Made by a program: the position numbers and the translations under genes. A stretch of DNA of 64,000 nt from assembly GCF_035920445.1 (NCBI RefSeq), contig NZ_CP109162.1:7502001-7566000 (forward strand), in the 5' to 3' direction. How positions within the stretch are numbered: position 1 is the stretch's first letter; the number at the start of each line of letters is the position of its first letter. The notes beneath the pieces are model-generated. The model saw nothing but the letters and a program-made list of their open reading frames with translations. It was not told the DNA's origin and did not search any database. This DNA is from Nocardia sp. NBC_01730. Its GTDB lineage: Bacteria > Actinomycetota > Actinomycetes > Mycobacteriales > Mycobacteriaceae. Positions 10,843 through 31,956 of this stretch are shown piece by piece.

Positions 10843-11925
10843 ATGTCGTCCGTCGTCGATGAACCGAGGATGCGTGCGGAGCGGCCCGCGCAGCCGGGGT
10901 GGTTCGTGAGCCCGCGCGTCGATGTCTTCCTCGTGCTGGGTCTGGGTGCGCTGCTGTCGGTCGTCCTGTCGCTGACCACCGCGCACAAGGGTGCGTTCCT
11001 GGTCGCCGCGGTCGGGTTCGCGGTGCTGTCGGACTATCCGCATGTCATGGCGACATCGGCGCGGGTGTGGCTGGATCCGCGGGAGCGTGAGCGCTACGGA
11101 CGGCATTACCTGATCAGCTGGTTTGTCGTTGCCGCTCTGGTCGGTTCGCTGATGTTCACCGGTTGGACAGTGGTTGTGGTGGCCGTGTGGGCGTACTGGC
11201 AGGTGTTCCATGTGCTCAAACAGCACTTCGGCATCATCAACATCTACGCGTCGAAGAACGGATACCGGTCGGGCCGCAAGCTGGTGAAGTACGCGTTGTT
11301 CGCGGGATCCCTCGCTCCCGTGGTGTATCGGGCGAGTGAGGGTCTGCAGTTCTCCGAGTATGTGGTGCTCGGTCATCGCCTGCCGTTCTCCGATCTGCGG
11401 GTGCCGACGCCGCCTATCCCGTTGCCCCTCGTCCTCGCAGGGTTCGGCGTGGCCGCGGTGCTGATCGGGTTGTTCGTGCGTGAGCAGGTACTGCTGCACC
11501 GTTCGGGCGGGCGGGCGCTGCCTGCGATGTCATGGGCGACGTTCGGCCTGGCGGTAGCGTCGTACAACCTCTCGTACCTGCTGGTTTCGGACTTGTTCGC
11601 GCTCATCCTGATCGCGACGACCACGCACAGCCTGCAGTATCACCTGATCAACTGGACTCGGAACAACACGCGTTTCCAGTTGTCCGCGGATCCGAAGGAG
11701 CGGAAGCTGCTGCTGGCCAGGTTGTCCAGCCGCCGTGCGCTGCCGCTCTATGTGCTGGGTTTCGCGGTGGTGGGCATTGTCACCGGCCAGCTGGATACGA
11801 TTCTGCTCGGCGTCATTCCGCTGACCTTCGTCTTCCATCACTTCTACATGGATGGTGCGTTGTGGAAGAGCAAGGGCAATCCTGAGCTGGCGTACGATCT
11901 CGGGATCGTGCAGCCCAAGCAATGA
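10843..11925 (+). CDS. His-rich polytopic membrane protein, first gene of cluster
   Basis: A 360-residue integral membrane protein with about eight hydrophobic segments. Conserved-looking His clusters border the membrane segments: YPHVMAT, WQVFHVLKQHFG, TTTHSLQYHLINW and FVFHHFYMDGALWK. This spacing recalls membrane di-iron enzymes such as desaturases and hydroxylases, but I cannot name a family. GGGAGGAAC precedes the ATG. It overlaps the next gene by 4 bp (ATGA), so the two are translationally coupled. A role in oxidising or handling a lipid intermediate is inferred from the neighbours. Confidence 0.75.
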   Translation: MSSVVDEPRMRAERPAQPGWFVSPRVDVFLVLGLGALLSVVLSLTTAHKGAFLVAAVGFAVLSDYPHVMATSARVWLDPRERERYGRHYLISWFVVAALVGSLMFTGWTVVVVAVWAYWQVFHVLKQHFGIINIYASKNGYRSGRKLVKYALFAGSLAPVVYRASEGLQFSEYVVLGHRLPFSDLRVPTPPIPLPLVLAGFGVAAVLIGLFVREQVLLHRSGGRALPAMSWATFGLAVASYNLSYLLVSDLFALILIATTTHSLQYHLINWTRNNTRFQLSADPKERKLLLARLSSRRALPLYVLGFAVVGIVTGQLDTILLGVIPLTFVFHHFYMDGALWKSKGNPELAYDLGIVQPKQ

Positions 11926-13094
11926 CCATCGACAACGTCGAGATTGTTCGGAACCGGATTTCGGATGTGGTGGTCCGCGTCGCCGATACCCGGCGCGGCA
12001 GGCGTGATTTCGTGGGTCTGCCCTGGCGGATCCACGACGCTGATCCGGTGTGGCGGCCACCGCTGCGCCGTGGCGTGGCCGACGGGATGCGTGCCGCGTC
12101 GAATCCGTTCCACGCCGAGGCCGATATCACGCATTTTGTCGCCTATCGGGGCGGGAATGAGCCGGTGGGCCGGGTGGCGGTGACGATCGATCGCGAATAT
12201 GTGCACCGCTACGGCGATTACGGCTTCTTCGGCTTCTTCGAAAGCGTCGACGACGTCGAGGTTGCCGACGCGCTCCTGACGACCGCGCAGCACTGGGCGG
12301 GTGCGCGGGGTGCGTCCGTGCTGACCGGGCCATACAGTTACTCGCCTCGGCACGAAATGGGTTTGCTGGTTGATGGTTTCGATCAACCGCCGACAGTGAT
12401 GCAACCGCACAATCCGCCCTACTATGCCGCGTTGCTGGAAGAGTGCGGATTCCGTCGGCGGTTCGACACCACGACCTACCGCTGGTCGCGCGAGACGGAC
12501 ACCGAGCGTGCGGAAAGGCTCGTCGCGCGTGCCAGGAAGGTGCTGGCGTCGGGGCGCATTCGGGTCCGGACTCCGGATATGCGGCGCTACGACGAGGAAC
12601 TCGAGCTGCTGCGGCGGATCTACAACGATTCCTTTCACGATCATCCCGAGCACGTGCCGATCAGTGCGCCGGTGTTCGGCCGGATCGCCGCCGATTTGAA
12701 GCCGGTACTGGATCCGGAGCTGATCCGCATCGTGGAGATCGATGGAACGGCATGCGGGTTCTCGATGCTGGTCCCGGATCTCAACGGGGTGGTGCCGCGG
12801 TCGGGCCGGCTCACCCTGCCGTTGCTGGCGCGGCTGCTGTGCAAGAGGGATCACAGGATTCGCGGTGTCGACACCGCGGTTGTCGTGATGATCGGGGTTG
12901 CGCGAGAGCAGATGGGCTTGGGAGCCGGCCGGGTCGTCGCCGGTGAGATCGCGAACGCCGTGCTGTCGGGGCGTTACCGCCAGGTCACCACGACCTGGAT
13001 CCATGAGCACAACCACTGGTCGAAAGCGCTGGTGGCACAGATGAAATCACCGCCATCGCGTCGGTATCGCGTGTACGAGAAGGCGATCGAATGA
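11922..13094 (+). CDS. YghO/bCerS-like GNAT-fold acyltransferase
   Basis: A 390-residue protein of the large GNAT-like family sometimes annotated as YghO. Hallmarks are DADPVWRPPLRRGV, SNPFHAEADITHFVAYR, YGFFGFFESVDDVEVADALL, the segment HEMGLLVDGFDQPP and HNPPYYAALLEECGF. Bacterial ceramide synthase of Caulobacter belongs to this broad family. The next gene is an SDR and an ACP and fatty-acyl ligase occur in the same cluster, so an N-acyltransferase using acyl-ACP or acyl-CoA is the favoured role. It is coupled to both neighbours by 4-bp overlaps. Confidence 0.75.
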   Translation: MTIDNVEIVRNRISDVVVRVADTRRGRRDFVGLPWRIHDADPVWRPPLRRGVADGMRAASNPFHAEADITHFVAYRGGNEPVGRVAVTIDREYVHRYGDYGFFGFFESVDDVEVADALLTTAQHWAGARGASVLTGPYSYSPRHEMGLLVDGFDQPPTVMQPHNPPYYAALLEECGFRRRFDTTTYRWSRETDTERAERLVARARKVLASGRIRVRTPDMRRYDEELELLRRIYNDSFHDHPEHVPISAPVFGRIAADLKPVLDPELIRIVEIDGTACGFSMLVPDLNGVVPRSGRLTLPLLARLLCKRDHRIRGVDTAVVVMIGVAREQMGLGAGRVVAGEIANAVLSGRYRQVTTTWIHEHNHWSKALVAQMKSPPSRRYRVYEKAIE

Positions 13095-14086
13095 ACGAAG
13101 TGACACTGGTGACGGGGGCGACCGGATGCCTGGGCGCCGCCCTCACGCGAGCTCTCCTCGACGACGGCGAGACGGTCGCCGCGCTCGTCGAACCCGGCGG
13201 CGCGGTCATATCGGTGCCGCGGCTCGAGATCCGCTACGGCGACGTCACCGATCCCGGCAGCCTCGCCGCGGCGATGAAGGGCGTCGGCCGGGTCTATCAC
13301 CTGGCCGGGGTGGTGGTTCCGCTGGACAGCATGGCCGACCGGATGTGGCAGGTGAACACGCTCGGTTCCTACAACGTGGCCCGCGCCGCCGTCGGCGCGG
13401 GCGTACAGCGGCTGGTCCATGTGTCGTCCATCGCCGCCATCGGGTACCCGCCCGACGGTGTAGTCGCCGACGAAATGTTCGATGTGCGGGATTCGGTGAC
13501 CGACAACGCCTATGCGACCACCAAGCGGTCGGCCGAGCGACTGGTGCTCGATCTCGCTGCCGCCGACGGTCTCGATACGGTCGTCGTCAATCCCTCGGCT
13601 GTGTTCGCACCGGGTGGCGATCCGCGCTGGGCGTGGTCCCGGATGGCGGGCGCCGCTCGGCGTGGGCTGCTGCGGGCGATGCCGATCGGCGGCACCGCGG
13701 TCTGCGCCGTACGCGATTTCGTGGACGGCACGCGAAAGGCTATGCGGCAGGGGCAGACCGGTCGACGGTACATCCTCAATACCGCGAATCTGACCTACCG
13801 TGAGATCGGTGAGCGGCTGCTGACCGCGGTCGGGAGACCTGGCTCGGTGCGCACGCTGCCCAGTCGAGCGTTGCGACCGGTCGCGCGGTTCAACGCCGGT
13901 TTCGCCCGGCTGTCTCGCGATCCGATGCGGTCGGCACTGCTGGTGCCCGAGAACGTGGAGTTGCTGACCAGGCAGTTGTACTACGACCAGGGGCGTGCGG
14001 TATCCGAGCTGGGCATGACCCAGACACCGCTCGATGCGATGTTCCGTGATCTGATCGGTCCCGCACCGGCCGGAGGTGTGCGGTGA
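13091..14086 (+). CDS. NAD(P)-dependent epimerase/dehydratase (extended SDR)
   Basis: A 331-residue extended short-chain dehydrogenase. The dinucleotide motif GATGCLGA is at residues 9-16, the Ser pair at 112-113 and the catalytic YATTK at 141-145. Later, VRDFVDG and IGERL fit the 3-beta-hydroxysteroid dehydrogenase/dihydroflavonol reductase branch. In Caulobacter an extended SDR (CerR) reduces the 3-keto group of the ceramide precursor; an analogous reduction of a keto-lipid here is inferred from the adjacent acyltransferase. Starts in an ATGA overlap and ends in a GTGA overlap with the desaturase. Confidence 0.85.
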   Translation: MNEVTLVTGATGCLGAALTRALLDDGETVAALVEPGGAVISVPRLEIRYGDVTDPGSLAAAMKGVGRVYHLAGVVVPLDSMADRMWQVNTLGSYNVARAAVGAGVQRLVHVSSIAAIGYPPDGVVADEMFDVRDSVTDNAYATTKRSAERLVLDLAAADGLDTVVVNPSAVFAPGGDPRWAWSRMAGAARRGLLRAMPIGGTAVCAVRDFVDGTRKAMRQGQTGRRYILNTANLTYREIGERLLTAVGRPGSVRTLPSRALRPVARFNAGFARLSRDPMRSALLVPENVELLTRQLYYDQGRAVSELGMTQTPLDAMFRDLIGPAPAGGVR

Positions 14087-15144
14087 CAACACATGTCACC
14101 GCAGGATCGGAAGCGGCACTGGGTATTTCGATGTCCGAGGCGCGCCGCATGATGGGCGACCTCAAAAGGCCGAGACACTGGGTCTACTGGGCCGATCTGC
14201 TGCTCTCGGTCGCCATCGGAGCCACGGCGTTCGTGCTGTTTCCGGCGCGGAATCCGTGGTCGCCGACCGCGGCCGTCTGCGTGGTCGTTTCGGCGTTGGC
14301 GTTCTATCGTGCGGTGCTGTTCGTGCACGAACTCGTGCACGCCGCCGAGCAGCTGCGGTCGTTCTCGCTCGTCTGGCATGTGCTGGTCGGGATTCCGCTG
14401 CTGTCGCCGAAGTTCATCTACGAGTTCCATCAGGAACACCACGCGTCGCGCACCTACGGCACCGAATCGGACGGCGAGTATGTCGATTACGCCGACCAAC
14501 CTCGCTGGCGCGTACTGCTCACCCCGTTCACCGCGTTTCTCGGGCTACCGGTCTTCATCATCCGATTCGTCGTCCTCGCTCCGTTGAGCTGGCTGATCCG
14601 GCCGCTGCGTGAGTTCGTGCTGACTCGGGCCTCGGCACTGGCCATCGACGCGGAGTTCGTGCGGAAGCTGCCCGATGGTCCGGTTCCGCGCCGGTGGATT
14701 GTCCAGGAGGCTGCCTGCTTCGTCTATGGCGTATTGATCGCGGGTCTGCTGCTCACCGGGGTGATTCCCGTCGTTCGTTTCGCCGAGGCGTACGCGGTGA
14801 TCACGGTGTTGTTGTTCGTGAACTGGTGGCGGGTGCTGGTGTCGCACCGTTATGAGAGCGGTAGCCGGCCGATGTCGTTCCCGGATCAGATCCTCGATTC
14901 CGTCGACCATACGTCGCACCCGCTGCTGGCCGAGCTCTGGGCGCCGGTGGGGCTGCGGTATCACGCCGTCCACCACTTCTTCCCATGGCTGCCGTATCAC
15001 GCGCTGCCCGAGGCGCGCCGCCGGTTGGCGGCGGCTATCCCCGCGGGCGGCGGCTACTGGCACACCGCCGACCGATCGTGGTGGTCGACCTTACGGCGGC
15101 TACTTTCCCGGCCCCAACTGCACTTGAACGGAGGTGCGCGGTGA
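14083..15144 (+). CDS. Membrane fatty acid desaturase-like di-iron protein
   Basis: A 353-residue integral membrane protein with the three His boxes of the fatty acid desaturase superfamily: HELVH at 82-86, HQEHH at 116-120 and HAVHH at 294-298, the last followed by FFPWLPYHALPEA. These bind the di-iron centre that desaturates or hydroxylates acyl chains. It starts at GTG in a GTGA overlap with the SDR gene, preceded by CGGAGGTG. Within this cluster it probably modifies the acyl or sphingoid-like chain; position and substrate are unknown. Confidence 0.9.
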   Translation: MTTHVTAGSEAALGISMSEARRMMGDLKRPRHWVYWADLLLSVAIGATAFVLFPARNPWSPTAAVCVVVSALAFYRAVLFVHELVHAAEQLRSFSLVWHVLVGIPLLSPKFIYEFHQEHHASRTYGTESDGEYVDYADQPRWRVLLTPFTAFLGLPVFIIRFVVLAPLSWLIRPLREFVLTRASALAIDAEFVRKLPDGPVPRRWIVQEAACFVYGVLIAGLLLTGVIPVVRFAEAYAVITVLLFVNWWRVLVSHRYESGSRPMSFPDQILDSVDHTSHPLLAELWAPVGLRYHAVHHFFPWLPYHALPEARRRLAAAIPAGGGYWHTADRSWWSTLRRLLSRPQLHLNGGAR

Positions 15145-16505
15145 CGAAGACGCGAGCGCCGATCACCCGCTGTCACGAGTCCCGCGCAGCCACCTATTCC
15201 CGGCGTCTGCCGATCACGCCTGTGCAGGCGCATGGTGTCCGGGTGCGCGATATCGACGGCCGGTGGTATCTCGACTGTCTCGCCGGGGCGGGCGCCATGT
15301 CGCTGGGCTGGAATCATCCGGTCGTGACCGAGGCCGTGCGGAACACGCTGGATTCCGGCGAACCGTTGCTGTCACTGGACTTTCACACGCCGACCCGGGA
15401 CGCGTTCGTCGAGGACCTGCTCGCCACGCTGCCCAGAGGCCTGGCCGACGACTGCGTCGTGCACCTGTGCTCGCCCAGTGGCGCCAACGCGATCGAGGCC
15501 GCGTTGACGGTCGCCGAGATCGCGACGGGCGGTAGCGAGCATGTCGCGGTGCAGGGTGGTTTTCATGGCTGCAGCCGGGCGGCGCGGTCGGTGAGTTCCG
15601 GTGGCGGACTGCGCACCCGGCAGGTCGCACTATCGCCCGCGGTGCGATTCCTGCCGTATCCCCAGGACTATCGGTGCCCGTTCGGGGTCGGCGGCGAGGC
15701 GGGTGTGCAGCGCGCCGTCGACGCTGTCGCGGACACCTTCGACAACCCGCACAGCGGCCTGGTCGCTCCGGCCTCGGTACTGGCGGAGTTCGTGCTCGGT
15801 GAGGGTGGGGTGGTCCCTGCGCCGCGGCCGTGGGCGCGAGCACTGCGACACGCGGCCACCCGTGCCGGGGTGCCGTTGATCGCCGACGAGATCCAGGCCG
15901 GTGTCTATCGGACCGGGCGCGCCTGGGCCTTCGAACACAGCGATATCGAACCCGACATGATCGCCATGTCCAAGGGCCTCGGTTCCGGAATCCCCATCGC
16001 GGTCCTGGTCATCCGCCGGCAGTTCGATGTCTGGGATCCGGGCACCTTCACCGGAACATTCCGCGGGAACGCCATGGCGTTCGCGGCCGCCAGTGCCGTG
16101 CTGCGCTACGCGGCGACCTCCGGACTGGCCGCCCACGTCAGCGCGATGGGGGAACTGCTCGGCTCCGGACTGCGCGCGATCGAGCAGCGGTCGGACCTGA
16201 TCGGAGAGGTGCGCACGGCCGGTCTGATGGCCGGGGTGGAGATCATCGATCCCGACGCGCCGACGGACCATCGCGGTGTCGCACCGCCGAGCGCCCGATC
16301 GGCCGCGCGTATCCAGCAGGAGTGCCTTCGGGCCGGGCTGATAGTCGAGACCGGCGGGCGCTACGGCAATGTGGTCCGGTTCTTGCCACCGCTGATCATC
16401 GATGCCGCCGAGATCGCCACTGTGCTGGAGATCTTCGACGACGTCGTGCACCGAGTCTCGCTCATGCGCGACTCGGACCGACTGCTGCCGACGGAGACCG
16501 CATGA
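15141..16505 (+). CDS. Class III PLP-dependent aminotransferase
   Basis: A 454-residue fold-type I enzyme resembling diaminobutyrate-2-oxoglutarate and other omega-aminotransferases. The PLP phosphate-binding segment is near SPSGANAIEAAL, the Asp binding the pyridine nitrogen is in IADEIQAG (249-254), and the Schiff-base lysine is in MSKGLGSG at residue 278. TFRGNAMAFAAA is also typical. Start is GTG in a GTGA overlap after GGAGGTG. Coupling to a decarboxylase (next gene) suggests either diaminobutyrate/1,3-diaminopropane formation or amination of a lipid carbonyl; sequence alone cannot decide. Confidence 0.88.
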   Translation: MTKTRAPITRCHESRAATYSRRLPITPVQAHGVRVRDIDGRWYLDCLAGAGAMSLGWNHPVVTEAVRNTLDSGEPLLSLDFHTPTRDAFVEDLLATLPRGLADDCVVHLCSPSGANAIEAALTVAEIATGGSEHVAVQGGFHGCSRAARSVSSGGGLRTRQVALSPAVRFLPYPQDYRCPFGVGGEAGVQRAVDAVADTFDNPHSGLVAPASVLAEFVLGEGGVVPAPRPWARALRHAATRAGVPLIADEIQAGVYRTGRAWAFEHSDIEPDMIAMSKGLGSGIPIAVLVIRRQFDVWDPGTFTGTFRGNAMAFAAASAVLRYAATSGLAAHVSAMGELLGSGLRAIEQRSDLIGEVRTAGLMAGVEIIDPDAPTDHRGVAPPSARSAARIQQECLRAGLIVETGGRYGNVVRFLPPLIIDAAEIATVLEIFDDVVHRVSLMRDSDRLLPTETA

Positions 16506-18019
16506 TCGACCCCCGCCCCACATCGCCGTTCGACACCGAATTCCTCACCGCGACAGGCGTCGACCACTACCTGGACGCCGTCTCCGCGGCCGCCGGGCAC
16601 ATCGCAGGCGCCTTCCGCGACTCGCCCGCGCCGGGCGTGGTGACCGGCTCCGGTGCGCTGCGGCAACGGATCCGGAGCCTGCCAGTGGCCCCACCTGATG
16701 GTGTCGGGCTGGTGGCCGTGCTCGATGAGATCGCCCAGCACGTGGTGCCGCTGTCGACGGCGGTGTCGAATCCCCGGTATGTCGCGCATCTGCACTGTCC
16801 ACCGGCCATCTCGTCACTGGCCGCCGAGGTGATGCTCAGTGCTCTCAACCAGTCGATGGATTCCTTCGACCAAGGCCCCGCCGCCAGCGCCGTCGAGGAG
16901 CACATCATCGAGTGGATGTGCGGGGTGCTCGGCTACGGCGTCGGTGGCGACGGTGTGTTCACCAGCGGTGGCACCCAGTCGAATCTTCAAGGTCTGCTGC
17001 TGGCCAGGGACAACTACGCTCGCGAGCGACTCCGCTGGGACATCGGCGAGCGCGGGCTTCCCGGCAGCGCCACCACATGGCGTGTGTTGTGCACGGCGCA
17101 AACACATTTCACAGTGACGCAGGCCGCAAGCCTGCTCGGTCTCGGCGCCTGTTCGATCATCCCCGTCGATACCGACAGCGCAGGCAGACTCGATCCGCGT
17201 GCACTGACCGCGGCCATCGAGGGCTGCGAGCACGCAGGCCAGCAGGTCATCGCGGTCGTCGCGAACGCGGGCACCACCGATTTCGGTGTGATCGATCCGC
17301 TCACGCGGGTGTGCGAGATCGCCCATGACCGCGGTATCTGGGTGCACGTGGACGCGTGTGCCGCGGGCTGCCTGCTGCTCAGCGACCAGCACCGCCATCT
17401 TGTCGACGGCATCGGTGGCGCCGACTCGGTGGCGATCGATTTCCACAAGCTGCTGTTTCAGGCGATCAGCTGCGGTGCACTGTTCGTGCGGAACCGGGAG
17501 GCGCTGAATGTCATGTCCAGTCACGCCGACTACCTGAACCCGTCCGACGACGACCCGGACGAAACCCGCAATCTCGTCGGGAAATCGCTGCAGACCACGC
17601 GCCGTTTCGATGCGCTGAAGATCCTTGTCACACTGCGCGCCTTGGGTGCTACGACCGTGGCGGACATGATCGACAGCACGGTGGCGGCGGCCGCGGCGGC
17701 GCACACGACGGCAGCGACGCAGGACCGCCTCGAGGTGATCGGTGCGGGCGGAACCAACACGGTGGTATTGCGCTGGACAGATCCGAGCCTGACATCCGGT
17801 CAGCTAGACCAGGTCAACGACGCGATCCGCCACGAGATGGCCACGTCAGGACAGGCTCTGGTCGGTCGCACCCGAGTCGACGGGGAGATCGCCGTCAAGC
17901 TCACCTTCGTCAACCCGGTGTGCACGGTGGACATCGCCCGCGACCTGGTCATCGACATCGCCGAATGCGGGCAACTGCTCGCCGACCGGATGTGTGAAGA
18001 GGTGGTTGCCCGTGCCTGA
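16502..18019 (+). CDS. Group II PLP-dependent amino acid decarboxylase
   Basis: A 505-residue decarboxylase of the glutamate/diaminobutyrate/aromatic L-amino acid decarboxylase group. Key motifs are TSGGTQSNL (154-162), HVDACAAG (282-289) and IDFHKLLFQ with the PLP lysine at 316. Overall it looks closest to L-2,4-diaminobutyrate decarboxylases, which give 1,3-diaminopropane, but substrate specificity in this group is hard to predict. It overlaps the aminotransferase by 4 bp. In the cluster it would supply an amine building block or head group. Confidence 0.88.
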   Translation: MIDPRPTSPFDTEFLTATGVDHYLDAVSAAAGHIAGAFRDSPAPGVVTGSGALRQRIRSLPVAPPDGVGLVAVLDEIAQHVVPLSTAVSNPRYVAHLHCPPAISSLAAEVMLSALNQSMDSFDQGPAASAVEEHIIEWMCGVLGYGVGGDGVFTSGGTQSNLQGLLLARDNYARERLRWDIGERGLPGSATTWRVLCTAQTHFTVTQAASLLGLGACSIIPVDTDSAGRLDPRALTAAIEGCEHAGQQVIAVVANAGTTDFGVIDPLTRVCEIAHDRGIWVHVDACAAGCLLLSDQHRHLVDGIGGADSVAIDFHKLLFQAISCGALFVRNREALNVMSSHADYLNPSDDDPDETRNLVGKSLQTTRRFDALKILVTLRALGATTVADMIDSTVAAAAAAHTTAATQDRLEVIGAGGTNTVVLRWTDPSLTSGQLDQVNDAIRHEMATSGQALVGRTRVDGEIAVKLTFVNPVCTVDIARDLVIDIAECGQLLADRMCEEVVARA

Positions 18020-18671
18020 ACCGCGGTTGCGCATCGATCGGATCCGGTATACCGATTCCGGGTTCGCCGAGGCGAAGCGATGGGAGTACGAGGTATTCGG
18101 CCGCGAAAATGCCTATACCGCCGCTGCCGATGACGAGGCGGGGGAGATGCTGCAGTATCGGCGCTGGGAACAATCCTCGGAGTTCTATGTCGGCTTCGGC
18201 GTGGAATCCGCCGGTGACCCCGTTGCGGTGCTGCGCGCCCTGCGCTGGGATTCCCGGCTGGGTTTGGACAGCTTCAGCACGATCAGTGACACCCGAGCCT
18301 TTCCCCATCCGGCCGGAGGACATCAGGATCTGCTGTATCCCGAGTGGTCGCGACGTTTCGAGCAGATCCGACCCGATACCGTCGCCGAACTGGCCACCCA
18401 GGCGGTACGGCGTACCCACCGGCGCGCCGGTGTCATCGACCAGGTGTGGGCCCGGTTCGCCACCTGCCTTGCCGAGGAGGGCGTCCGCTATGTGACGGTG
18501 GCGCTCGTCGTCCCGTTGTTCGAGTGGTACCGGCTGCTGTTCGGCGCGGCGATCAGCCGGATCGGCCAGTTGCTGCCCGACTATGTCGGTGCCGACAGCA
18601 TTCCCGCCGTGATCGACCTGCACGCCATCGATGCCAGCGTCGTCTCATCGAAAACGAAAGTGACACAATGA
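18012..18671 (+). CDS. LuxI/FeeM-like GNAT N-acyltransferase
   Basis: A 219-residue protein with features of the autoinducer-synthase/N-acyl amino acid synthase branch of GNAT folds. The N-terminal region AKRWEYEVFGRENAY, the central FGVESAGDPVAVLRALRWD … TISDTRAFP, and the C-terminal WYRLLFGAAISRIGQLLPDYVG with PAVIDLHAID resemble those enzymes, which use acyl-ACP to acylate an amine. The start is the GTG at 18012 (MPEPRLRIDRI), 8 bp inside the decarboxylase, with GAAGAGG upstream. An ACP and fatty-acyl ligase in the cluster could supply the donor. Confidence 0.65.
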   Translation: MPEPRLRIDRIRYTDSGFAEAKRWEYEVFGRENAYTAAADDEAGEMLQYRRWEQSSEFYVGFGVESAGDPVAVLRALRWDSRLGLDSFSTISDTRAFPHPAGGHQDLLYPEWSRRFEQIRPDTVAELATQAVRRTHRRAGVIDQVWARFATCLAEEGVRYVTVALVVPLFEWYRLLFGAAISRIGQLLPDYVGADSIPAVIDLHAIDASVVSSKTKVTQ

Positions 18672-21712: not shown

Positions 21713-21750
21713 ACCCGCACGGTATCCATGACCGAAAGGAAAAGACACCC

Positions 21751-22002: not shown

Positions 22003-22045
22003 CACGGGTACTCATGCCACTCGATCACAAAGGGCCTGCATTGTT

Positions 22046-23680: not shown

Positions 23681-23687
23681 CAATTGG

Positions 23688-23708: not shown

Positions 23709-23718
23709 AGGTTCGATA

Positions 23719-24519
23719 GTGCGTGAACGAGGTATGGCCGCGGCGGTAGCCCCGGCCATACGCACCTTCGGTCGCGCTTCGATCCTGGCGTGGTCCGCGC
23801 TCGGTTGGCTGGCCGCCGACGTGGTTCGTGGGCGATTCGCCTGGCGGGAAGCGTTGGCGCAGAGCTGGTTCATCGTGAGCGTCACGGCGGTCCCTGCGGT
23901 GTTCGTGTCGATTCCGTTCGGGGTGATCGTCTCCGTGCAGGTCGGAAACCTGACCCAGCAGGTCGGTGCCACCTCGCTCGCAGGGGCCGCCGCCGGGGTG
24001 GGAGTCGTTCGGCAAGGCGCCCCGTTGGTCGCGGCGCTTCTGCTCGGCGGGGCCGCAGGCGCGGCGATCGCCGCCGATCTCGGTGCGCGAACCATCAGAG
24101 AGGAAATGGACGCAATGCGGGTGATGGGCATCGATCCGGTCCGCCGCATCGTCGCACCCCGCCTGGCCGCGATGACAGTGATAGCTCCGCTGCTGTGCGT
24201 GGTGATCGTCTTCATGGGCCTGTCGACCGGCTATCTGATCAACGTCGGCCTGCAACACGGCGCCCCTGGCGGTTATCTCTCGTCGTTCGCGTCCTTCGTC
24301 ACGGTCTCGGATCTGGTTGCCGCGCTGGTGAAGTCGGCGCTGTTCGGGATCGTCGTCGTGGTGCTGGCCTGCCAGCGCGGGCTGGAGGCCACCGCAGGTC
24401 CCAAGGGGGTTGCCGACTCGGTGAACGCGGCGGTGGTGCTCGGCGTGGTCGCGACATTCGGCCTGAACTTGATCATCACGCAACTGCTCTCGATGTTCGG
24501 CTCGCGGGTGCTCGGATGA
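23719..24519 (+). CDS. yrbEA: YrbE/MlaE-family Mce permease A
   Basis: A 266-residue MlaE-type permease, first gene of an mce operon. It has about five membrane segments and the conserved block GARTIREEMDAMRVMGIDPVRRIVAPRLAAM, the EExDAL-like coupling region of the family. With YrbEB it forms the inner-membrane channel of the Mce lipid importer; the ATPase (MceG) is not in this window. The GTG at 23719 is used; an ATG five codons in is possible. Confidence 0.92.
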   Translation: MRERGMAAAVAPAIRTFGRASILAWSALGWLAADVVRGRFAWREALAQSWFIVSVTAVPAVFVSIPFGVIVSVQVGNLTQQVGATSLAGAAAGVGVVRQGAPLVAALLLGGAAGAAIAADLGARTIREEMDAMRVMGIDPVRRIVAPRLAAMTVIAPLLCVVIVFMGLSTGYLINVGLQHGAPGGYLSSFASFVTVSDLVAALVKSALFGIVVVVLACQRGLEATAGPKGVADSVNAAVVLGVVATFGLNLIITQLLSMFGSRVLG

Positions 24520-25361
24520 CGGCATCGCCGCTGAACCTTGCCACCGGCCGCATCGGATCGTTCGTCGGCACGGCAGTCGAGCGGCTCGGACATCAGCTGA
24601 GTTTCGGGACGCAGGTGCTCGCGGCCGTGCCGCACACCCTGCGTGCCTACCGCAGGCAGACGATGGTCGTGCTCACCGACATCGTGTGGGGCAGTGGCGG
24701 ACTGGTCGTCGGCGGCGGCACCGCCGCGGTGCTGGTCTTTCTCGGCATCGCGGTCGGAGGATCGGTCGGTATGGAAGGGCTGAACGCGCTCGATATGGTC
24801 GGTATGGGCCCGCTGACCGGGTTTGTCTCCGCATATGCGAATACGCGGGAGCTGGCGCCGATGATGGTGGCGATCGGATTCGCCGCTCAGGCCGGCTGCC
24901 GGATGACCGCCGAGATCGGCGCGATGCGGATCTCTGAGGAGATCGACGCCTTGGAAGCCCAAGCGGTACGGCCCATCCCGTTCGTGGTGACCACGCGCGT
25001 GATCGCGGGGACCACCACGATCATCCCGCTGTACCTCACGACGCTGATCGTCGTCTACCTGTCCTGCGCGGTCGTGGTGAACGTGCTGCACGGGCAGTCC
25101 GCTGGCACCTACTTCCACTACTTCGAGTCTTTCCTTCGGCCGGCGGACGTGCTGTATTCGCTGGTCAAGGCCATCGTTCTGGTGGCGGCTGTCATCGTGG
25201 TGCACTGCTATCAGGGTTTTCATGCCACCGGAGGGCCCGAAGGGGTGGGTCGTGCGTGTGGGCAGGCCATCCGGGCCAGCCTCATTCTCATCGTGGTCAT
25301 GGACATGGTGATGACCGCGGTGTTCTGGGGCACGAGCACGGGAATCAGGATCTCGGGGTAG
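24516..25361 (+). CDS. yrbEB: YrbE/MlaE-family Mce permease B
   Basis: A 281-residue partner permease. The core IGAMRISEEIDALEAQAVRPIPFVVTTRVIAG is the MlaE coupling motif, and the C-terminus …HCYQGFHATGGPEGVGRACGQAIRAS is the usual end region. About five membrane segments are predicted. It overlaps yrbEA by 4 bp, consistent with 1:1 production of the permease pair. Confidence 0.93.
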   Translation: MTASPLNLATGRIGSFVGTAVERLGHQLSFGTQVLAAVPHTLRAYRRQTMVVLTDIVWGSGGLVVGGGTAAVLVFLGIAVGGSVGMEGLNALDMVGMGPLTGFVSAYANTRELAPMMVAIGFAAQAGCRMTAEIGAMRISEEIDALEAQAVRPIPFVVTTRVIAGTTTIIPLYLTTLIVVYLSCAVVVNVLHGQSAGTYFHYFESFLRPADVLYSLVKAIVLVAAVIVVHCYQGFHATGGPEGVGRACGQAIRASLILIVVMDMVMTAVFWGTSTGIRISG

Positions 25362-25363
25362 CC

Positions 25364-26401
25364 ATGTGGCGAGGTGGACGAAGTGGTGGGCGCGTGCCGA
25401 GTGCCATGGCGCTGCGGGTGCGTGGGCTCGCCGTGGTGGCGATCGGGCTGCTGGTGACCGCGCTGACCACCGCTCACCTGCAGGGCCGATTCCACGATGA
25501 CGTCTCGCTGACGATTGAGGCCGACTCGCTCGTCGACGGTCTGCTGGCCGGTGCGGACGTGAAGTTCCACGGAGCCGCGATCGGTACCGTACGCCGCGTG
25601 CAGACGGCGGGCGACACCCGCCGCGTCGAGATCAGCATCGATCGGGATCAGGCTCCGGCGCTGACCGATCGCGTCGCCGCGAGCTTCACTGTCGCGAATG
25701 TGTTCGGCACCCCCGCGATCGAATTGGTGAATCTCGGTGACGGTCCGCCGGTTCGGGATCACGCGGTCGTGCCACTCGCCACCGGCGCCATGGGCGCCAC
25801 CGCGACCGGGGTGCTGCAGCGCACCGGACGGCTCATGGAGGTGCTCGACTCGCCTCGGCTGCGGAACCTGCTCGACGTCGCGGCCGAGAACCCGGGACTG
25901 TTCGGTCCGACCATCGAGGCGATCACCGGCATCGCTCGGGCATTGGAGCAGGATCGTCGTGGGAGTACGGCCCACTACCTGCGGATCGCTGGTGACCTGT
26001 CGGATGGATTCGCGGTCCTGGAACCGGAGTTGGTTGACTCGCTGATCGCGTTGCTCGACCAGAGCGAGTACTTCGGCGACGAAACCAACCGCGCACGGAC
26101 CCGCAAGGCGATTGCCGGACTGAGCCAGGATTTCCTGCCCGGATACGCTCGGCTGTTCGGCGACAACCGCGATCACTTCGCCGAAATCCTTGCTGTGGTA
26201 CTCGATCTCGGCCTGCCGCTCGGCATGTCCTATGGCTCGATCGCCCCGGCCTATCAGCGCCTGCCCGAGCTTCTCGACCGCATCGGCGCCGCGTTTCCGG
26301 TCGTGGACGGAAAGGTGCAAATGCAACTCGAGATCATCGCCGACACGATGCCGCACATCGCCCGCTCCGTCACCGACACCGGTCCGGGAGCCGTTCGATG
26401 A
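25364..26401 (+). CDS. mceA: Mce family protein A
   Basis: A 345-residue MCE protein with one N-terminal membrane anchor (RGLAVVAIGLLVTALTTA) and an MCE domain containing DSLVDGLLAGADVKFHGAAIGTVRRV, then a long helical region that forms the needle-like tunnel in known Mce complexes. The ATG at 25364 is preceded by CGGGG and lies 2 bp after the yrbEB stop. It is first of the six consecutive mce genes. Confidence 0.9.
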   Translation: MWRGGRSGGRVPSAMALRVRGLAVVAIGLLVTALTTAHLQGRFHDDVSLTIEADSLVDGLLAGADVKFHGAAIGTVRRVQTAGDTRRVEISIDRDQAPALTDRVAASFTVANVFGTPAIELVNLGDGPPVRDHAVVPLATGAMGATATGVLQRTGRLMEVLDSPRLRNLLDVAAENPGLFGPTIEAITGIARALEQDRRGSTAHYLRIAGDLSDGFAVLEPELVDSLIALLDQSEYFGDETNRARTRKAIAGLSQDFLPGYARLFGDNRDHFAEILAVVLDLGLPLGMSYGSIAPAYQRLPELLDRIGAAFPVVDGKVQMQLEIIADTMPHIARSVTDTGPGAVR

Positions 26402-27408
26402 CGGCGGTACGCGGTCCCGCGATCAAGCTGTCGATCTTCCTGGTTCTGGTGATCGGCTGCCTCAGCCTGATCCTGTCCACCCTGCGTGGGCCGGCAACGG
26501 GCGCGGCCACGGAATACGACGCGATCTTCACCGACGTGTCCGGACTGGTCACCGGGGACAGTGTCCGGATGGCGGGGGTCCAGGTCGGCAGGGTCACCAC
26601 GATCGAGTTGACCACGGACGCGACGGCTCGGGTGCGGTTCACCGTGGGTGGTGACCGGCCCATCCTGGACACGACCCACGCCGCGGTGCGGTATCAGACC
26701 CTGCTCGGGCAGCGCTATGTGGAACTGTTCGATGCCCGGCCCGCTGGTACCCGTCTGTCGCCAGGTGCGACGATCCCACGTGAACGCACCGAGCCCAGTT
26801 TCGATGTGTCCCGGTTGTTCAACGGGTTCAAACCCTTGTTCAGCGCACTCGATACCGGGCAGCTGAACCGCCTGGGGGAGAACCTGATCCGCGTCCTCCA
26901 GGGTGACGGCGCCGGAATCGGCCCGGTACTGGCTGATCTCGACAGCCTGCTGCGGTATGCGAAGAACCGGGATGCGGTCCTCGTGGTGCTGATCCGCAAC
27001 CTCGGTGAGATCGCGGCGGAGATCGGCGGCAAATCCGAACAGGTCGGCGCGCTCATCAAGCAGGTCGCGGGGATCATCGGAGTGTTCAGCCATCGCGCGG
27101 ACGAATTGGTGAACTCGCTGCGGGTCGCCGGCTACGGGCTGGAGCCCGATGTCGGGATCCTTGCCGAACTCGAATCCCTCTTCGACGACACCCATGCACC
27201 ACTGCACCAGCTGCTGCGGCGACTTGCGCCGCGCACCGACCAACTTGTGGAGATCCTGTCCCTGATGCCGGAATTACTCGGGGGCCTGAACGCGAACTAC
27301 CCCGCGAATGGTCCCTCGCCTGCCTTCACCTGCTCGACGCAGTCCGTCGAACCCCCCGGCATCGGAAGCGCCATTCTCGGCAATCAACATCTGGTGGTGT
27401 GCAAATGA
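26398..27408 (+). CDS. mceB: Mce family protein B
   Basis: A 336-residue MCE protein: N-terminal anchor LSIFLVLVIGCLSLILSTL, then the MCE domain (YDAIFTDVSGLVTGDSVRMAGVQVGRVTTIEL; TLLGQRYVELF), an extended helical region, and a Cys near the C-terminus. It overlaps mceA and mceC by 4 bp each. It is expected to be one strand of the hexameric importer assembly. Confidence 0.92.
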   Translation: MTAVRGPAIKLSIFLVLVIGCLSLILSTLRGPATGAATEYDAIFTDVSGLVTGDSVRMAGVQVGRVTTIELTTDATARVRFTVGGDRPILDTTHAAVRYQTLLGQRYVELFDARPAGTRLSPGATIPRERTEPSFDVSRLFNGFKPLFSALDTGQLNRLGENLIRVLQGDGAGIGPVLADLDSLLRYAKNRDAVLVVLIRNLGEIAAEIGGKSEQVGALIKQVAGIIGVFSHRADELVNSLRVAGYGLEPDVGILAELESLFDDTHAPLHQLLRRLAPRTDQLVEILSLMPELLGGLNANYPANGPSPAFTCSTQSVEPPGIGSAILGNQHLVVCK

Positions 27409-28391
27409 GACTCATTACGCACCGAATTCGCACCGATATTTCCGAGGGGCGCCGCGAATTCCGCTGGGGTTCGGCGGGTCTCGCGATCGCCGCGGTCGTC
27501 ATCGCGGTCGTCGGGCTGGTCCGGCTGATCCCCGGCAGCGAGTACGGGCACGTCGCCGAATTCCGTGACTCCGGTGGCCTGCAGGCCGGCGACGAGGTGC
27601 GGATCGCCGGTGTCCCCGTCGGCCGGGTCGGTACCGTCGAACTGGCCGACGACCATGTCCGGGTCGGTTTCGCGGTCCACACCGATCAGCCTGTTGGCGA
27701 TCGCACGACCGCCGAGGTGCGGCTGCTGACGCCGGTCGGTGGCCACTACCTGGCGCTCACGCCGGCCGGTGCGCAACCACTCGGCGCCAAGCCGATTCCG
27801 CGTGAGCGCACCCGGACTCCCTACGAGCTGGCCGATGTCTTCGAACAGAGCATCCCGCAGTTGGGTGGTATCGACGGATCGACATTGCGCGAGACCGTCG
27901 CTGAACTCGACGCGGCACTGGCGAATCAGCCCGACGCCCCCCGCGGCATCCTGGACAGTCTCACCGGGCTCACCACGACCATCACGGCTCAGTCCGATCG
28001 GCTCGATCGCGCCGTACGAGTTTCCGACGAGTACGTCGCGGCTATCGCGACCGACCGCGAGATCCTCACCGGGTTCGTGCGCGAGCTCGGCATCATCTCC
28101 GCGAAGCTCGGTCAGGCCAAGACCGAGGTCATCCGCGCCTTCCAGCTGCTTCGCAGGCTCACCGAAGTCACCCACCGGCCGATCATGGCGTACGGGGATT
28201 CGCTCGAACCCGCCATCACCGACCTCGAGCAACTGCTGGCCAAGGTCGCCGACGCACCCGATCGGCTCGACACGGTCATTGCCGCGATCAACGACTTCAT
28301 CGTCAAGATCGCCGCGTTGACCGGAACGGGCGAACCAGCCGGAGCATCCGAACCCGATCTCTGTGTGCCGCGCGCGGGAAAGGACTGCTGA
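27405..28391 (+). CDS. mceC: Mce family protein C
   Basis: A 328-residue MCE protein. Anchor: GLAIAAVVIAVVGLVRLI. MCE domain: YGHVAEFRDSGGLQAGDEVRIAGVPVGRVGTVEL and LLTPVGGHYLAL. The ATG at 27405 overlaps the mceB stop by 4 bp; a GTG two codons earlier is possible. The helical C-terminal region ends with two Cys residues (PDLCVPRAGKDC). Confidence 0.92.
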   Translation: MRLITHRIRTDISEGRREFRWGSAGLAIAAVVIAVVGLVRLIPGSEYGHVAEFRDSGGLQAGDEVRIAGVPVGRVGTVELADDHVRVGFAVHTDQPVGDRTTAEVRLLTPVGGHYLALTPAGAQPLGAKPIPRERTRTPYELADVFEQSIPQLGGIDGSTLRETVAELDAALANQPDAPRGILDSLTGLTTTITAQSDRLDRAVRVSDEYVAAIATDREILTGFVRELGIISAKLGQAKTEVIRAFQLLRRLTEVTHRPIMAYGDSLEPAITDLEQLLAKVADAPDRLDTVIAAINDFIVKIAALTGTGEPAGASEPDLCVPRAGKDC

Positions 28392-28392
28392 T

Positions 28393-29430
28393 ATGAGGGT
28401 CGGGAAACGTCTCTGGTATCCGCTGATCGGGATCGCCGTGCTCGCCGTGCTCGCCGGACTCGGGTCCTCCGCGGTCACACCCCTCGACCGGACAAGTTTC
28501 GGCAGGACCGTGTGCGCGGAGTTCACCGATACCGACGGTCTCTACCGGGGCAACGACGTCACCGTGCTCGGCGTCCGTGCCGGGATCGTCGACCACATCG
28601 AACCCCTCGCCGACCGCATGCGGGTGACGATGCGCCTCGACCGGGACGTGACACTGCCTGCCGATACCAGCGCGGTCACCATGTCGGGGTCGATCGTCAC
28701 CGACCGCAGGGTCGAACTCATCCGATCCCACACCGACGGTCCGGAACTGGCTGCGGACACCTGTATTCCACTGTCGCGCACCAAAACTCCGCTCGGTGTC
28801 AGCGAATCCTTCGACGCCCTCGGACGATTGACCGCCGACATTACCGGCGGCGTACCCGGTGACACCCGGGCAGGCGACACCCTCGCTGGCCTCGACCGCG
28901 CCCTGCGCGACACCGGAACGACCACCAACGACCTGCTTGCGCACCTGTCGCGGCTGGTCGGCGACCCGAGGGACCGGGACGCCACCATGCGGCGGCTGAT
29001 CGACAACCTCGACCTGCTCACCACCATGTTCGTCGCGAACTGGCCCGATATGCAGCTACTGCTGGACCACCTCTACGACGGATTGGAAGTGGTCGAGGGA
29101 CTTTCGGCGAACTTCGCACCCATGGTCGACCTGTCCAACCAGATGCTTCCGGTACTGGCACGCAACGTCGACAAGTACGGCGATCGGGTGTACACGGCGC
29201 TGGACTCCGCCGTTCCCGCGGTGCATGCCGCGCTGCACAACGCGGGCGGCATCCGAGATCTGCTGTCGCATCTGCCGCCCGCCGTAGATGCCCTCTTGCG
29301 CATTCTGTTACCGAACGCGCCCACCGCCGCGGTGATGGGTTGCCCGGCGACCGCTGATACCCCGCTGCCGAGCACAGTGTGCCTGCACGCAGATGGAACC
29401 CGGCACGCAGATGGAACGGAGCCGCGATGA
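28393..29430 (+). CDS. mceD: Mce family protein D
   Basis: A 345-residue MCE protein with anchor WYPLIGIAVLAVLAGLG and MCE domain (CAEFTDTDGLYRGNDVTVLGVRAGIVDHIEPL; VTDRRVELI). The C-terminus carries a small duplication, HADGT repeated after one residue, from a direct DNA repeat. The ATG lies 1 bp after the mceC stop and the gene ends in a 4-bp overlap with mceE. Confidence 0.92.
   Translation: MRVGKRLWYPLIGIAVLAVLAGLGSSAVTPLDRTSFGRTVCAEFTDTDGLYRGNDVTVLGVRAGIVDHIEPLADRMRVTMRLDRDVTLPADTSAVTMSGSIVTDRRVELIRSHTDGPELAADTCIPLSRTKTPLGVSESFDALGRLTADITGGVPGDTRAGDTLAGLDRALRDTGTTTNDLLAHLSRLVGDPRDRDATMRRLIDNLDLLTTMFVANWPDMQLLLDHLYDGLEVVEGLSANFAPMVDLSNQMLPVLARNVDKYGDRVYTALDSAVPAVHAALHNAGGIRDLLSHLPPAVDALLRILLPNAPTAAVMGCPATADTPLPSTVCLHADGTRHADGTEPR
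29385..29417 (+). repeat. 18-bp-period tandem duplication in mceD 3' end
   Basis: GCACGCAGATGGAAC occurs at 29385-29399 and 29403-29417. The duplication keeps frame and doubles HADGT at the MceD C-terminus. It looks like recent replication slippage. Confidence 0.8.
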
Positions 29431-30434
29431 GATGGCGTCCCCTCTGTGCCGTCGGCGCGGTCGCTCTGATCGCGGGATGCGGTGTCGACCCGGCCGACCT
29501 GCCGGTTCCGGGAGCCGGTGTCTCGGGCGCGAGTTACGAGATCAGGATCGAGTTCGCCAGCGTGCTGAGTCTGCCCGCGAAGGCGAAGGTCATGGCGGAC
29601 GGCGCCGAGGTCGGCGTCGTGGACCGGGTCGATCTGGCCGACCGGGTCGCCGTCGCGACTGTCGATCTGACATCGACAGTGCGGCTGCCGAAGTCGACCA
29701 CCGCCGAGATTCGGCAGACTACCCTGCTCGGCGAGTCCTACATAGCGCTTCGGCCGCCGGTCGGCGGCGCAGGTCCGCACCTGACATCGGGCGACGTCAT
29801 ACCGCTGGCGCAGACCCGACCCCCGGACAGCGTCGAGAACCTGTTGCGGGGCATGTCGAACGTACTGGCCAACGGCCGCTTCGACGACCTGGCCGCCGCT
29901 ATCAGCCGAGTCAACGCCGCGTTCCCCGACGACCGCGAGTACCAGCGTCTGGCAGCGGAGATCCGTGCGGACGTCCACGACCTGTCCACCGGCACAGCGG
30001 ATCTCGACCGCATCCTCGACGCGGCCGCCGGTATCACCGACGACCTGGCGGTCAAGAAATCCGCCGTCGACCGCGCTCTCGTCCTCGGGCCCGCCCGCGC
30101 TGCCGGTCTCAGCGATGTCCTCTTCGGGATCGTCGACCTCGCGGTGGCACTCGGCCATCTCCTGCAGCCCGCCGGTGATCTGGTGTGGCCGATCTACGGC
30201 GACACTCTCGATATCTACCGTGCCATGCGCCCGCTGCTGTTGACCGTCGCCGACGCGGACACCACCATCCCGATGAACGTCGACAAGTTCACTCGTCTAC
30301 TGCGCGACACCCTGATCCCGTATTTCAGTGCGCCACCGAATATCCGGATCCACGGCGTCGCGACGCCGGCGTCCGCCGAACAGCAGGCCGACGCACTGGT
30401 TACCGTGCTCCGATCGATCGGAATGGTGCCATGA
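29427..30434 (+). CDS. mceE: Mce family lipoprotein E
   Basis: A 335-residue MCE protein with a lipoprotein signal instead of a plain anchor: MRWRPLCAVGAVALIAGC, with the lipobox Cys at 18. This is the norm for the fifth mce gene. The MCE domain includes YEIRIEFASVLSLPAKAKVMADGAEVGVVDRV and TLLGESYIAL. It overlaps mceD and mceF by 4 bp. Confidence 0.93.
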   Translation: MRWRPLCAVGAVALIAGCGVDPADLPVPGAGVSGASYEIRIEFASVLSLPAKAKVMADGAEVGVVDRVDLADRVAVATVDLTSTVRLPKSTTAEIRQTTLLGESYIALRPPVGGAGPHLTSGDVIPLAQTRPPDSVENLLRGMSNVLANGRFDDLAAAISRVNAAFPDDREYQRLAAEIRADVHDLSTGTADLDRILDAAAGITDDLAVKKSAVDRALVLGPARAAGLSDVLFGIVDLAVALGHLLQPAGDLVWPIYGDTLDIYRAMRPLLLTVADADTTIPMNVDKFTRLLRDTLIPYFSAPPNIRIHGVATPASAEQQADALVTVLRSIGMVP

Positions 30435-31375
30435 GCCCGCGCACAACCGCTTCCCTGACCGGTCTCCTGGCCACCACTCTCGCCGGTGCCCTGTATCTCG
30501 CCGCCGGCGTCCTCGACATCAATCCGGCGCGAGACACCACAACCATCACGGTGCGGATGCCGACCTCGGGTGGGCTGATGAATACCTCCTCCGTGGATTT
30601 GCGCGGCATGGCGATCGGCCGCGTCCGCGACATCACCACCACCAAGGACGGCGTGACCGTCGCCGTCGAATTCGATGCGAAATATCGGATTCCGGTCACC
30701 AGTCCGGTCCGGGTCGCGAATCTGTCCGCCGCGGGCGAGCAGTACCTGGAATTCCGTCCGCGCACCGCGGACGGTCCCTACCTAACCGACGGCGCCGTGA
30801 TACCGGCGGGTCAGGTCGAGATCCCGATCACCGCCGGCGAGATGATGGCACGCCTGGACACTCTGCTCGCCCAAGTGGACCCCGCCGTCGTCGACAGCCT
30901 GCTGACGACCCTCGACGATGCCACCGCAGGACGTCACACCGACATCGCCGACCTCGCGCAGTCCGCCACCCTGTTGGCGAACACCTTGCGGGACAAACAG
31001 GATCAGATCCACCGGCTCTGGCTCAATCTGCAGACCCTCGCCGACAACTTCGACGGCCACGGCAGCACCTTCACCGCCGTCGCCCCGGTGATCGATCGCG
31101 CCGATCCCGAAGTGGTGCACCTGATCCGCGCCTTTCAGGACTACTCCCACGTCGGTGCGAACGTCTGGGACGACACGCTCACACCGATGATGCACAAGAT
31201 CGACGAATACGTCGCACAGCTGGCTCCGGAACTGGCGTTGATCGCCGGCATCGTCCGGCCCGCCACCGCTCGGCTGCGGCCACTGCGCCTCGACGCAGGC
31301 TCGATCGTCGACATCCTGTCCACCATGTTCCCCGAGGGCGGACCCGCCAGGGTGACTGTCATCCCACCGAAGTAA
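30431..31375 (+). CDS. mceF: Mce family protein F
   Basis: A 314-residue MCE protein completing the six-gene set. Anchor TGLLATTLAGALYLAAGVL; MCE domain with TSGGLMNTSSVDLRGMAIGRVRDI and NLSAAGEQYLEFRP; helical region with periodic Asp/Leu. It is slightly shorter than many MceF proteins. It overlaps mceE by 4 bp and is followed 11 bp later by the Mce-associated gene. Confidence 0.92.
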   Translation: MSPRTTASLTGLLATTLAGALYLAAGVLDINPARDTTTITVRMPTSGGLMNTSSVDLRGMAIGRVRDITTTKDGVTVAVEFDAKYRIPVTSPVRVANLSAAGEQYLEFRPRTADGPYLTDGAVIPAGQVEIPITAGEMMARLDTLLAQVDPAVVDSLLTTLDDATAGRHTDIADLAQSATLLANTLRDKQDQIHRLWLNLQTLADNFDGHGSTFTAVAPVIDRADPEVVHLIRAFQDYSHVGANVWDDTLTPMMHKIDEYVAQLAPELALIAGIVRPATARLRPLRLDAGSIVDILSTMFPEGGPARVTVIPPK

Positions 31376-31386
31376 TCGAGGTAGAA

Positions 31387-31956
31387 ATGACCGACGAAGC
31401 GGCAACGACAACAGACGAGGAATCCTCCGCAGCGGCACGCACCGAACAGGCGAATCATCGGGTTTCCTCGGTGGTTCCGCGAGCACTGGTCGCTGCGGTG
31501 GTCGCCCTCACCGCGCTCGCCGGTTTTCTCGGGTGGCGCTGGTACACCACCGAACAGGACCTCGACGCCCTGCGGCGCGACACCGCCGATCGCGACAAAG
31601 CCGCAGCGGTCGCCGCGGACTACGCGAAACGGTCGCTGACCTACGACTTCCGCAACCTCGACGCCTTCTTCGACAGCGTGCGGCACGGAACCACCGACCG
31701 CCTGTCCAACCGCTACGACACCGTCCACGACACCTTGAGCAAAATCATGACCGAGGCCCAGGTCGTCGCACATGGCGACGTGGTCGGCACTGCTGTCGGC
31801 ACGGTCGACGGCGACGACTACACCGTCACCGTCTTCGCCACGCAGCAGACGCAGAACGTGCAGCACCCCGAACCGGTCAGCGCCGCCGCCCTGCTGACCG
31901 TGAACGTGCATCGCGACGGCGGCAACTGGGTTGTCGCAGACTACCGCTCGCAATGA
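31387..31956 (+). CDS. Mce-associated membrane protein
   Basis: A 189-residue protein with an acidic, disordered N-terminus, one membrane segment (ALVAAVVALTALAGFLGW) and an extracytoplasmic domain with DYAKRSLTYDFRNLDAFFDSVRHGTT and NVHRDGGNWVVADYR, matching proteins encoded after mceF in mycobacteria and nocardiae (Mas/Mam). These stabilise or assist the Mce transporter. The operon ends here, convergent with the YwaF-like gene 60 bp away. Confidence 0.88.
   Translation: MTDEAATTTDEESSAAARTEQANHRVSSVVPRALVAAVVALTALAGFLGWRWYTTEQDLDALRRDTADRDKAAAVAADYAKRSLTYDFRNLDAFFDSVRHGTTDRLSNRYDTVHDTLSKIMTEAQVVAHGDVVGTAVGTVDGDDYTVTVFATQQTQNVQHPEPVSAAALLTVNVHRDGGNWVVADYRSQ

Follow-up and report, generated by a model that had tools for sequence, protein, structure and literature searches.

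We analysed a 64,000-nucleotide stretch of the Nocardia sp. NBC_01730 genome (NZ_CP109162.1, positions 7,502,001 to 7,566,000; hereafter the window, with coordinates counted from its first letter), which carries a block of 13 plus-strand genes at 10843-23680 (here g1 to g13) followed by a yrbE-mce operon that extends to 31956. An initial annotation had marked the locus as a candidate for the synthesis, export and Mce-mediated import of a ceramide-like amino-lipid. Fifteen other Mycobacteriales loci have the genes of the block in the same order, so its arrangement is not due to chance, and we propose, with roughly even confidence, that the operon makes a diamine lipid from fatty acids and also transports it.

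Architecture of the block and its gene products

The genome consists of a single contig of 8.68 Mb, with the block at 7.5 Mb. All 13 genes are open, and 10 of their 12 junctions overlap, nine by 4 bases and one by 8, the latter figure depending on the start picked for g7; the last two junctions are intergenic spacers, 38 and 43 bases long, and a further 38 bases separate g13 from yrbEA. Coordinates and overlaps thus agree with the initial annotation, and so do most of the functions it named: the short-chain dehydrogenase/reductase (SDR), desaturase, aminotransferase, decarboxylase, ATP-binding cassette (ABC) ATPase, ABC-2 permease, ligase and YrbE proteins are all recovered by Pfam, and the remaining ones are taken up below.

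Dihydroceramide synthesis in bacteria is described as involving aasR, acpR, spt, epi and aca, which are clustered in Caulobacter and Escherichia coli BL21 and among which the E. coli aca is yghO (PMC9386255); bCerS is placed in the cytoplasm and CerR in the periplasm (PMC11087976). As reference we used the five side-by-side genes of E. coli EC96 rather than Caulobacter sequences, and four of the five have homologues in the block, clear for YghO and the ligase and weak for the SDR and the acyl carrier protein (ACP). The product of g2 (11922-13094), a YghO-type GNAT enzyme of the E. coli/Caulobacter ceramide N-acyltransferase family, aligns over its full length with E. coli YghO at 31% identity (382 amino acids; 1e-58 in a single comparison, 2.5e-57 within the five-protein set), in line with the annotated YghO-like acyltransferase; the GNAT Pfam domain is matched by 30 of 34 aligned g2 relatives at E values up to 1 (best 1.6e-12), and the window's g2 is not among them. 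Within the five-protein set, the fatty acyl-AMP/acyl-ACP ligase g13 (22046-23680; AMP-binding Pfam domain) is 32% identical to the ceramide-locus ligase over 521 amino acids (4e-77), and its 764 bits on NF005850, a model for a subfamily with the name long-chain-fatty-acid--CoA ligase, exceed the cut-off of 572. The extended SDR g3 (13091-14086) retains conserved GATGCLG and YATTK motifs and aligns with the ceramide-locus epimerase at 28% over 317 amino acids (9e-11 in that set), its best NCBIfam models being HpnA and SdmB, both below cut-off. For g12 (21751-22002), with a conserved D37-S38, the ACP assignment comes from NCBIfam at 70.1 bits, just below the best model's cut-off of 72, and its 32% identity to the ceramide ACP over 44 amino acids (9e-7 in that set) is a level that any ACP might reach. 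With g13 and g12 the locus appears to hold a dedicated acyl-ACP ligase and its carrier. E. coli serine palmitoyltransferase (Spt) matches none of the 21 proteins of the locus better than E 0.016 (five-protein set), and the two Spt-like proteins of the genome (33-34%) are both encoded away from it, which bears out the annotated absence of Spt, with an aminotransferase and a decarboxylase in its place. In E. coli K-12, yghO adjoins an IS5 copy (L134, 7044-9341), and its surroundings lack spt and the genes for the ACP, epimerase and ligase, all of which accompany it in EC96 (L135, 4500-10103).

The amine-forming pair consists of g5 (15141-16505), a class III aminotransferase, and g6 (16502-18019), a group II pyridoxal-phosphate decarboxylase resembling L-2,4-diaminobutyrate decarboxylase, both also recognized by Pfam. 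At 416 bits g5 passes the cut-off of TIGR00709 (401.6), which places it among the diaminobutyrate--2-oxoglutarate transaminases, and such transaminases are the best NCBIfam families for all four g5 proteins scanned; RhbB is likewise the best family for g6 in four of four (357-380 bits, cut-off 900). In the 1,3-diaminopropane route, a transaminase and a decarboxylase usually come as a pair. That route is described as starting from aspartate semialdehyde (PMC11531321). An amine route of the diaminobutyrate/1,3-diaminopropane type supports the different amine-forming route first envisaged for an N-acylated amine or sphingoid-like lipid, and makes a diamine more likely than a sphingoid base.

Among the remaining products, g1 (10843-11925) is a polytopic membrane protein with no Pfam family, whose predicted model (pLDDT, the predicted local distance difference test, 88; ten long helices) gives no clear PDB fold match. 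The histidine-rich membrane protein of the initial annotation nevertheless represents a conserved family, with D64, H67, H123, H128, H262, H267, H332 and H333 invariant in 44 aligned homologues, and we infer a putative metal-dependent lipid oxygenase. The membrane fatty-acid desaturase/hydroxylase g4 (14083-15144; PF00487) carries three conserved histidine boxes, whose histidines are present in at least 95% of 27 aligned rows. A second, LuxI/FeeM-like acyltransferase had been annotated in g7 (18012-18671; alternative start 17994), and by fold alone the assignment probably holds: the predicted fold is LasI/FeeM-like and LuxI/FeeM proteins rank before other GNATs, at 10-17% identity to the ten best of these proteins and with no Pfam match. 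Downstream lie g8 (18668-19192), an SRPBCC/START-like putative lipid carrier that scores 22.9 bits on PF10604, below its cut-off of 27.4; g9 (19189-19941), a putative lipoprotein whose lipobox-type Cys25 is shared by all 10 aligned sequences and which matches no NCBIfam model and, above cut-off, no Pfam family; g10 (19938-20900), an ABC exporter ATPase that is DrrA-like, below that model's cut-off; and g11 (20897-21712), an ABC-2 permease that is weakly DrrB-like.

The operon behind g13 comprises two MlaE permease genes, yrbEA (23719-24519) and yrbEB (24516-25361), and six MlaD-domain genes, mceA (25364-26401), mceB (26398-27408), mceC (27399-28391), mceD (28363-29430), mceE (29379-30434) and mceF (30328-31956), all on the plus strand; MceE has an N-terminal signal with a lipobox-like IAGC, and the true start of mceF probably lies downstream of 30328. 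The 24 MlaD matches in the genome fall into four groups of six, one of them at this locus, and the genome thus carries four mce operons, the block-linked one included. The Mce ATPase (MceG/Mkl) is encoded elsewhere in such genomes.

Distribution of the block and its pairing with Mce operons

A g1 profile scan of one genome per species (84,980 species), which required one of two short conserved peptides and therefore gives a lower bound, returned 27 loci: 15 in Mycobacteriales, one in Streptomyces and 11 in Pseudomonas/Chromobacterium. The Mycobacteriales loci belong to two Nocardia, twelve mycobacteria in the wide sense and Segniliparus rugosus, and the bearers include rapidly growing mycobacteria such as M. 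chelonae, M. franklinii, M. peregrinum and M. senegalense; g1-g8, g10 and g11 stand in identical order in all 15, and g9 was detected in 14, the locus of Nocardia sp. CDC159 having no detected g9 and g8 directly adjoining g10. In Segniliparus (L064, 11417-12205) the g2 match spans 263 residues only, from a broken gene or a sequencing error. The block is rare in its family, with g1 in 5 of the 401 genomes searched. Across 298 genomes of the order, g2 homologues turned up in 27, with an identity of only 26-31% in 24 cases; of the seven genomes besides the window's that were examined with flanks, one contained the block (G262; this species, M. setense, was met in two scans, also as L060, and is counted once). 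Two others, G004 and G033, encode an SDR with weak similarity to g3 at a distance of about 2-3 kb from their g2 relative. The YghO-type acyltransferases that are 26-31% identical to g2 (L012-L035) belong for the most part to a single genus outside the family, probably Micromonospora, and the block was not found around the five of these examined with flanks. Judged by titles and abstract beginnings, the locus is not described in the open-licence literature searched.

To follow the Mce pairing, YrbEA was searched in the genomes behind the g1 loci and the stretch downstream of the ligase was fetched. In 13 of the 15 other Mycobacteriales loci, or 14 of 16 with the window, yrbEA, yrbEB and mce genes come directly after the ligase, which supports a reading of the ceramide-like block and the mce operon as conserved together. 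In N. pseudobrasiliensis the block's contig ends just past the ACP gene and another contig begins inside the ligase gene and continues into mce, which is consistent with the same pairing across the contig end. The occurrence of the core without an adjoining mce operon, which the initial annotation had named as speaking against it, was seen in Segniliparus, in Streptomyces and in the 11 Pseudomonas/Chromobacterium loci (in the latter two groups tblastn detected no YrbE or Mce within the stretch examined) and counts against part of that annotation.

The phylogeny of YrbEA adds to this picture. In a tree of 55 proteins, 15 of them block-linked (N. pseudobrasiliensis counted as linked) and 40 unlinked ones picked for spread from the YrbEA search matches and the window's own genome, the linked proteins form two clades, one of three Nocardia and one of twelve mycobacterial sequences. 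A single clade for the linked proteins was rejected (log-likelihood difference 165; p = 1e-37 in the approximately unbiased test). The program warned of long branches, and a quick tree without the three long rows again needed two groups. Since two different mce lineages have come to stand behind one and the same block, their association must have arisen, or been renewed through replacement, on at least two occasions, and this is the strongest evidence for a joint function of block and transporter.

Related cores outside the Mycobacteriales are differently composed. Ten Pseudomonas loci and one Chromobacterium locus share the order ligase, g1, g4, class III aminotransferase and g2, with an aminotransferase frame that spans 864-880 residues in every one of the 11 and a matched ABC ATPase behind g2 in 9; no g7, g6 or g3 was detected in these 11 loci. 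In P. batumici (L066), the sole locus read further, an ACP-sized gene lies behind the ligase gene and a small g8-like protein, to which g8 is weakly related (hhalign probability 68, E 5e-5), precedes g2, and a MacB/FtsX-like permease and a LolA-like protein adjoin the core. Its fusion aminotransferase scores best on PigE (528 bits, below the cut-off of 850; PDB 4ppm) and has its domains in the order of TamH, an enzyme described as making fatty amines with a transaminase followed by a further domain (PMC9594044). No such TamH-type transaminase-thioester reductase fusion was found in the window, where g5 has 454 residues and one Pfam domain. In Streptomyces novaecaesareae (L065, L138-L141), g1, g2, g3 and the ligase stand beside a polyketide synthase (PKS) protein of ketosynthase-acyltransferase-ACP type, with open reading frames (ORFs) of 2878 and 7730 residues.

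A candidate diamine lipid and its alternatives

The gene content suggests an N,N'-diacyl-diaminopropane lipid as the product, and substrates, step order and Mce direction are likewise proposed from it; what the analysis shows directly is the gene order, the protein families, the fold predicted for g7, the conservation and the recurrent association with mce. The acyl-AMP ligase g13 would load a fatty acid onto the dedicated ACP g12, and the desaturase g4 and the membrane protein g1 would modify the chain by a double bond and/or a hydroxyl. The aminotransferase g5 would convert aspartate semialdehyde to 2,4-diaminobutyrate and g6 the latter to 1,3-diaminopropane, of which g2 and g7 would acylate one nitrogen each to give N,N'-diacyl-1,3-diaminopropane, a two-chain amide lipid of ceramide-like shape; g3 might reduce a keto group on a chain. 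The lipid carrier g8, the lipoprotein g9, the ABC-2 exporter g10-g11 and the Mce system would then move the lipid through the envelope. The main argument for double acylation lies in the comparison of cores: one amine nitrogen goes with one acyltransferase in Pseudomonas, as against two acyltransferases in the diamine route. For re-uptake through Mce, as first suggested, we found no support, and the P. batumici context agrees no less well with delivery to the outer envelope.

Several observations weigh against this proposal. The three g5 orthologues share its best NCBIfam families yet fall below the TIGR00709 cut-off, and among PDB chains a 4-aminobutyrate-type enzyme precedes a diaminobutyrate transaminase as the match of g5. 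The window's g6 reaches 371 bits on RhbB, far from the cut-off of 900, and its first PDB match is 5o5c, a desferrioxamine-pathway decarboxylase, with the diaminobutyrate decarboxylase 2qma second; these scores leave another diamine possible. The SDR is poorly explained because no keto group is expected on diaminopropane, and the likeness of SDR and ACP to ceramide genes is weak and commonplace for such families. The genome encodes elsewhere synthetases for siderophores made independently of nonribosomal peptide synthetases (NIS), which are potential diamine users. Finally, the ligase gene of Segniliparus is followed by a PPE gene, with no YrbEA match on that contig, and the core beside the Streptomyces PKS indicates that part of it also serves other chemistry.

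The scores of g6, slightly higher on 5o5c than on 2qma and far below the RhbB cut-off, together with the 4-aminobutyrate-type best PDB match of g5, would suit an amide lipid built with otherwise unchanged steps on another small amine (putrescine, cadaverine or a hydroxylated diamine) or on a diaminobutyrate head group. We regard this as a minority possibility, given the consistent NCBIfam placement of g5 and the customary pairing of both enzymes in the 1,3-diaminopropane route. Rather unlikely, in our estimate, is a secreted amphiphile (an N-acylated signal, antibiotic or surfactant) made from a diamine and released by the DrrAB-like pump, with Mce re-importing the compound, its breakdown products or fatty acids: the acyl-homoserine-lactone synthase-like fold of g7, the exporter type, the Streptomyces PKS context and the patchy spread of g1 would all accommodate it, but the mce pairing in nearly all Mycobacteriales blocks and the LolA-like protein and MacB/FtsX-like permease of P. 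batumici point to an envelope lipid, and two acyltransferases suggest a two-chain product.

A sphingoid-like base could also arise without Spt if g5 acted on a long-chain keto compound or aldehyde, g6 on an acylated amino acid and g3 like CerR. The homology to four ceramide genes out of five, the SDR included, and the fatty-amine type enzyme of the Pseudomonas version would fit; g5, however, lacks the second domain of that enzyme, and the best families of g5 and g6 act on small amino acids, which renders this route improbable. We consider it very improbable that the pair supplies a diamine for a siderophore encoded elsewhere, to which the acyltransferases add a fatty tail. Among NCBIfam models g6 scores best on the rhizobactin decarboxylase, and the genome has three IucA/IucC matches, but these lie only at 1.75 and 3.09 Mb, far from the block, with no such synthetase in the window, and the block recurs at 15 further loci.

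Returning to the diacylated diamine, we tentatively extend the proposal, as a possibility rather than an expectation, to a new class of envelope lipid, N,N'-diacyl-1,3-diaminopropane, which a dedicated Mce system would move outward to the outer membrane after synthesis by the cell itself, instead of taking up a foreign lipid; the related Pseudomonas core would be coupled to a Lol-like exporter, so that one lipid-making core would have been matched to different envelope transporters. If the diamine-lipid reading is right, it would add a lipid class to bacteria including Nocardia and rapidly growing mycobacteria and provide an Mce operon with a cargo that the preceding genes allow one to guess. 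Mce cargo and direction become directly testable at this locus, which also brings to light g1 as a conserved membrane protein family with neither a Pfam entry nor a clear PDB fold match.

Neighbouring genes and relation to known systems

Directly behind the mce operon lies a minus-strand gene for a TMEM164 family protein (32017-32790; PF14808, 187 bits), a family with matches in 6 of the 15 genomes from the genus when the window's is counted in, and beside it a secretory lipase gene (33019-34368, minus strand; PF03583). Plus-strand genes further downstream encode a Ser/Thr kinase of 1152 residues that also has AAA/STAND and TPR regions (34845-38303), a 996-residue ORF with a phage-integrase-type domain at residues 667-850 (41053-44043), a 226-residue ORF whose match to a class I/II aminotransferase is confined to positions 162-361 of the latter and which looks like a cut-down gene (44929-45609), and, roughly 20 kb away from the mce operon, a type I fatty acid synthase of 3147 residues (52552-61995); a tRNA-Leu gene is located at 52190-52271.

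Set against known systems, the block resembles the bacterial ceramide pathway (spt, acpR, epi/cerR, aasR, aca/bcerS/yghO) in uniting clear homologues of its N-acyltransferase and ligase with weaker ones of its ACP and SDR, and differs in having an aminotransferase and a decarboxylase instead of Spt, as well as a desaturase, a histidine-rich membrane protein, a second acyltransferase, an ABC-2 exporter and an Mce operon. With the 1,3-diaminopropane route (dat/ddc; RhbA/RhbB of rhizobactin 1021) it shares matching families encoded by adjacent, overlapping genes, here accompanied by acyl-ACP machinery and no siderophore synthetase in the window. The Pseudomonas/Chromobacterium blocks recall TamA/TamH of tambjamine and PigE of prodigiosin synthesis in their long aminotransferase fusion near a ligase, whereas the window's aminotransferase has no second domain and is joined by a YghO-type acyltransferase and lipid transport genes; g7, in turn, is set apart from FeeM and LuxI N-acyltransferases by its low identity to the ten best of them and its missing Pfam match. 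Like actinobacterial Mce operons of the mce1 to mce4 type, the transporter has yrbEA, yrbEB and six MCE proteins in order, but here it is fixed behind a lipid-synthesis operon, and by two mce lineages.

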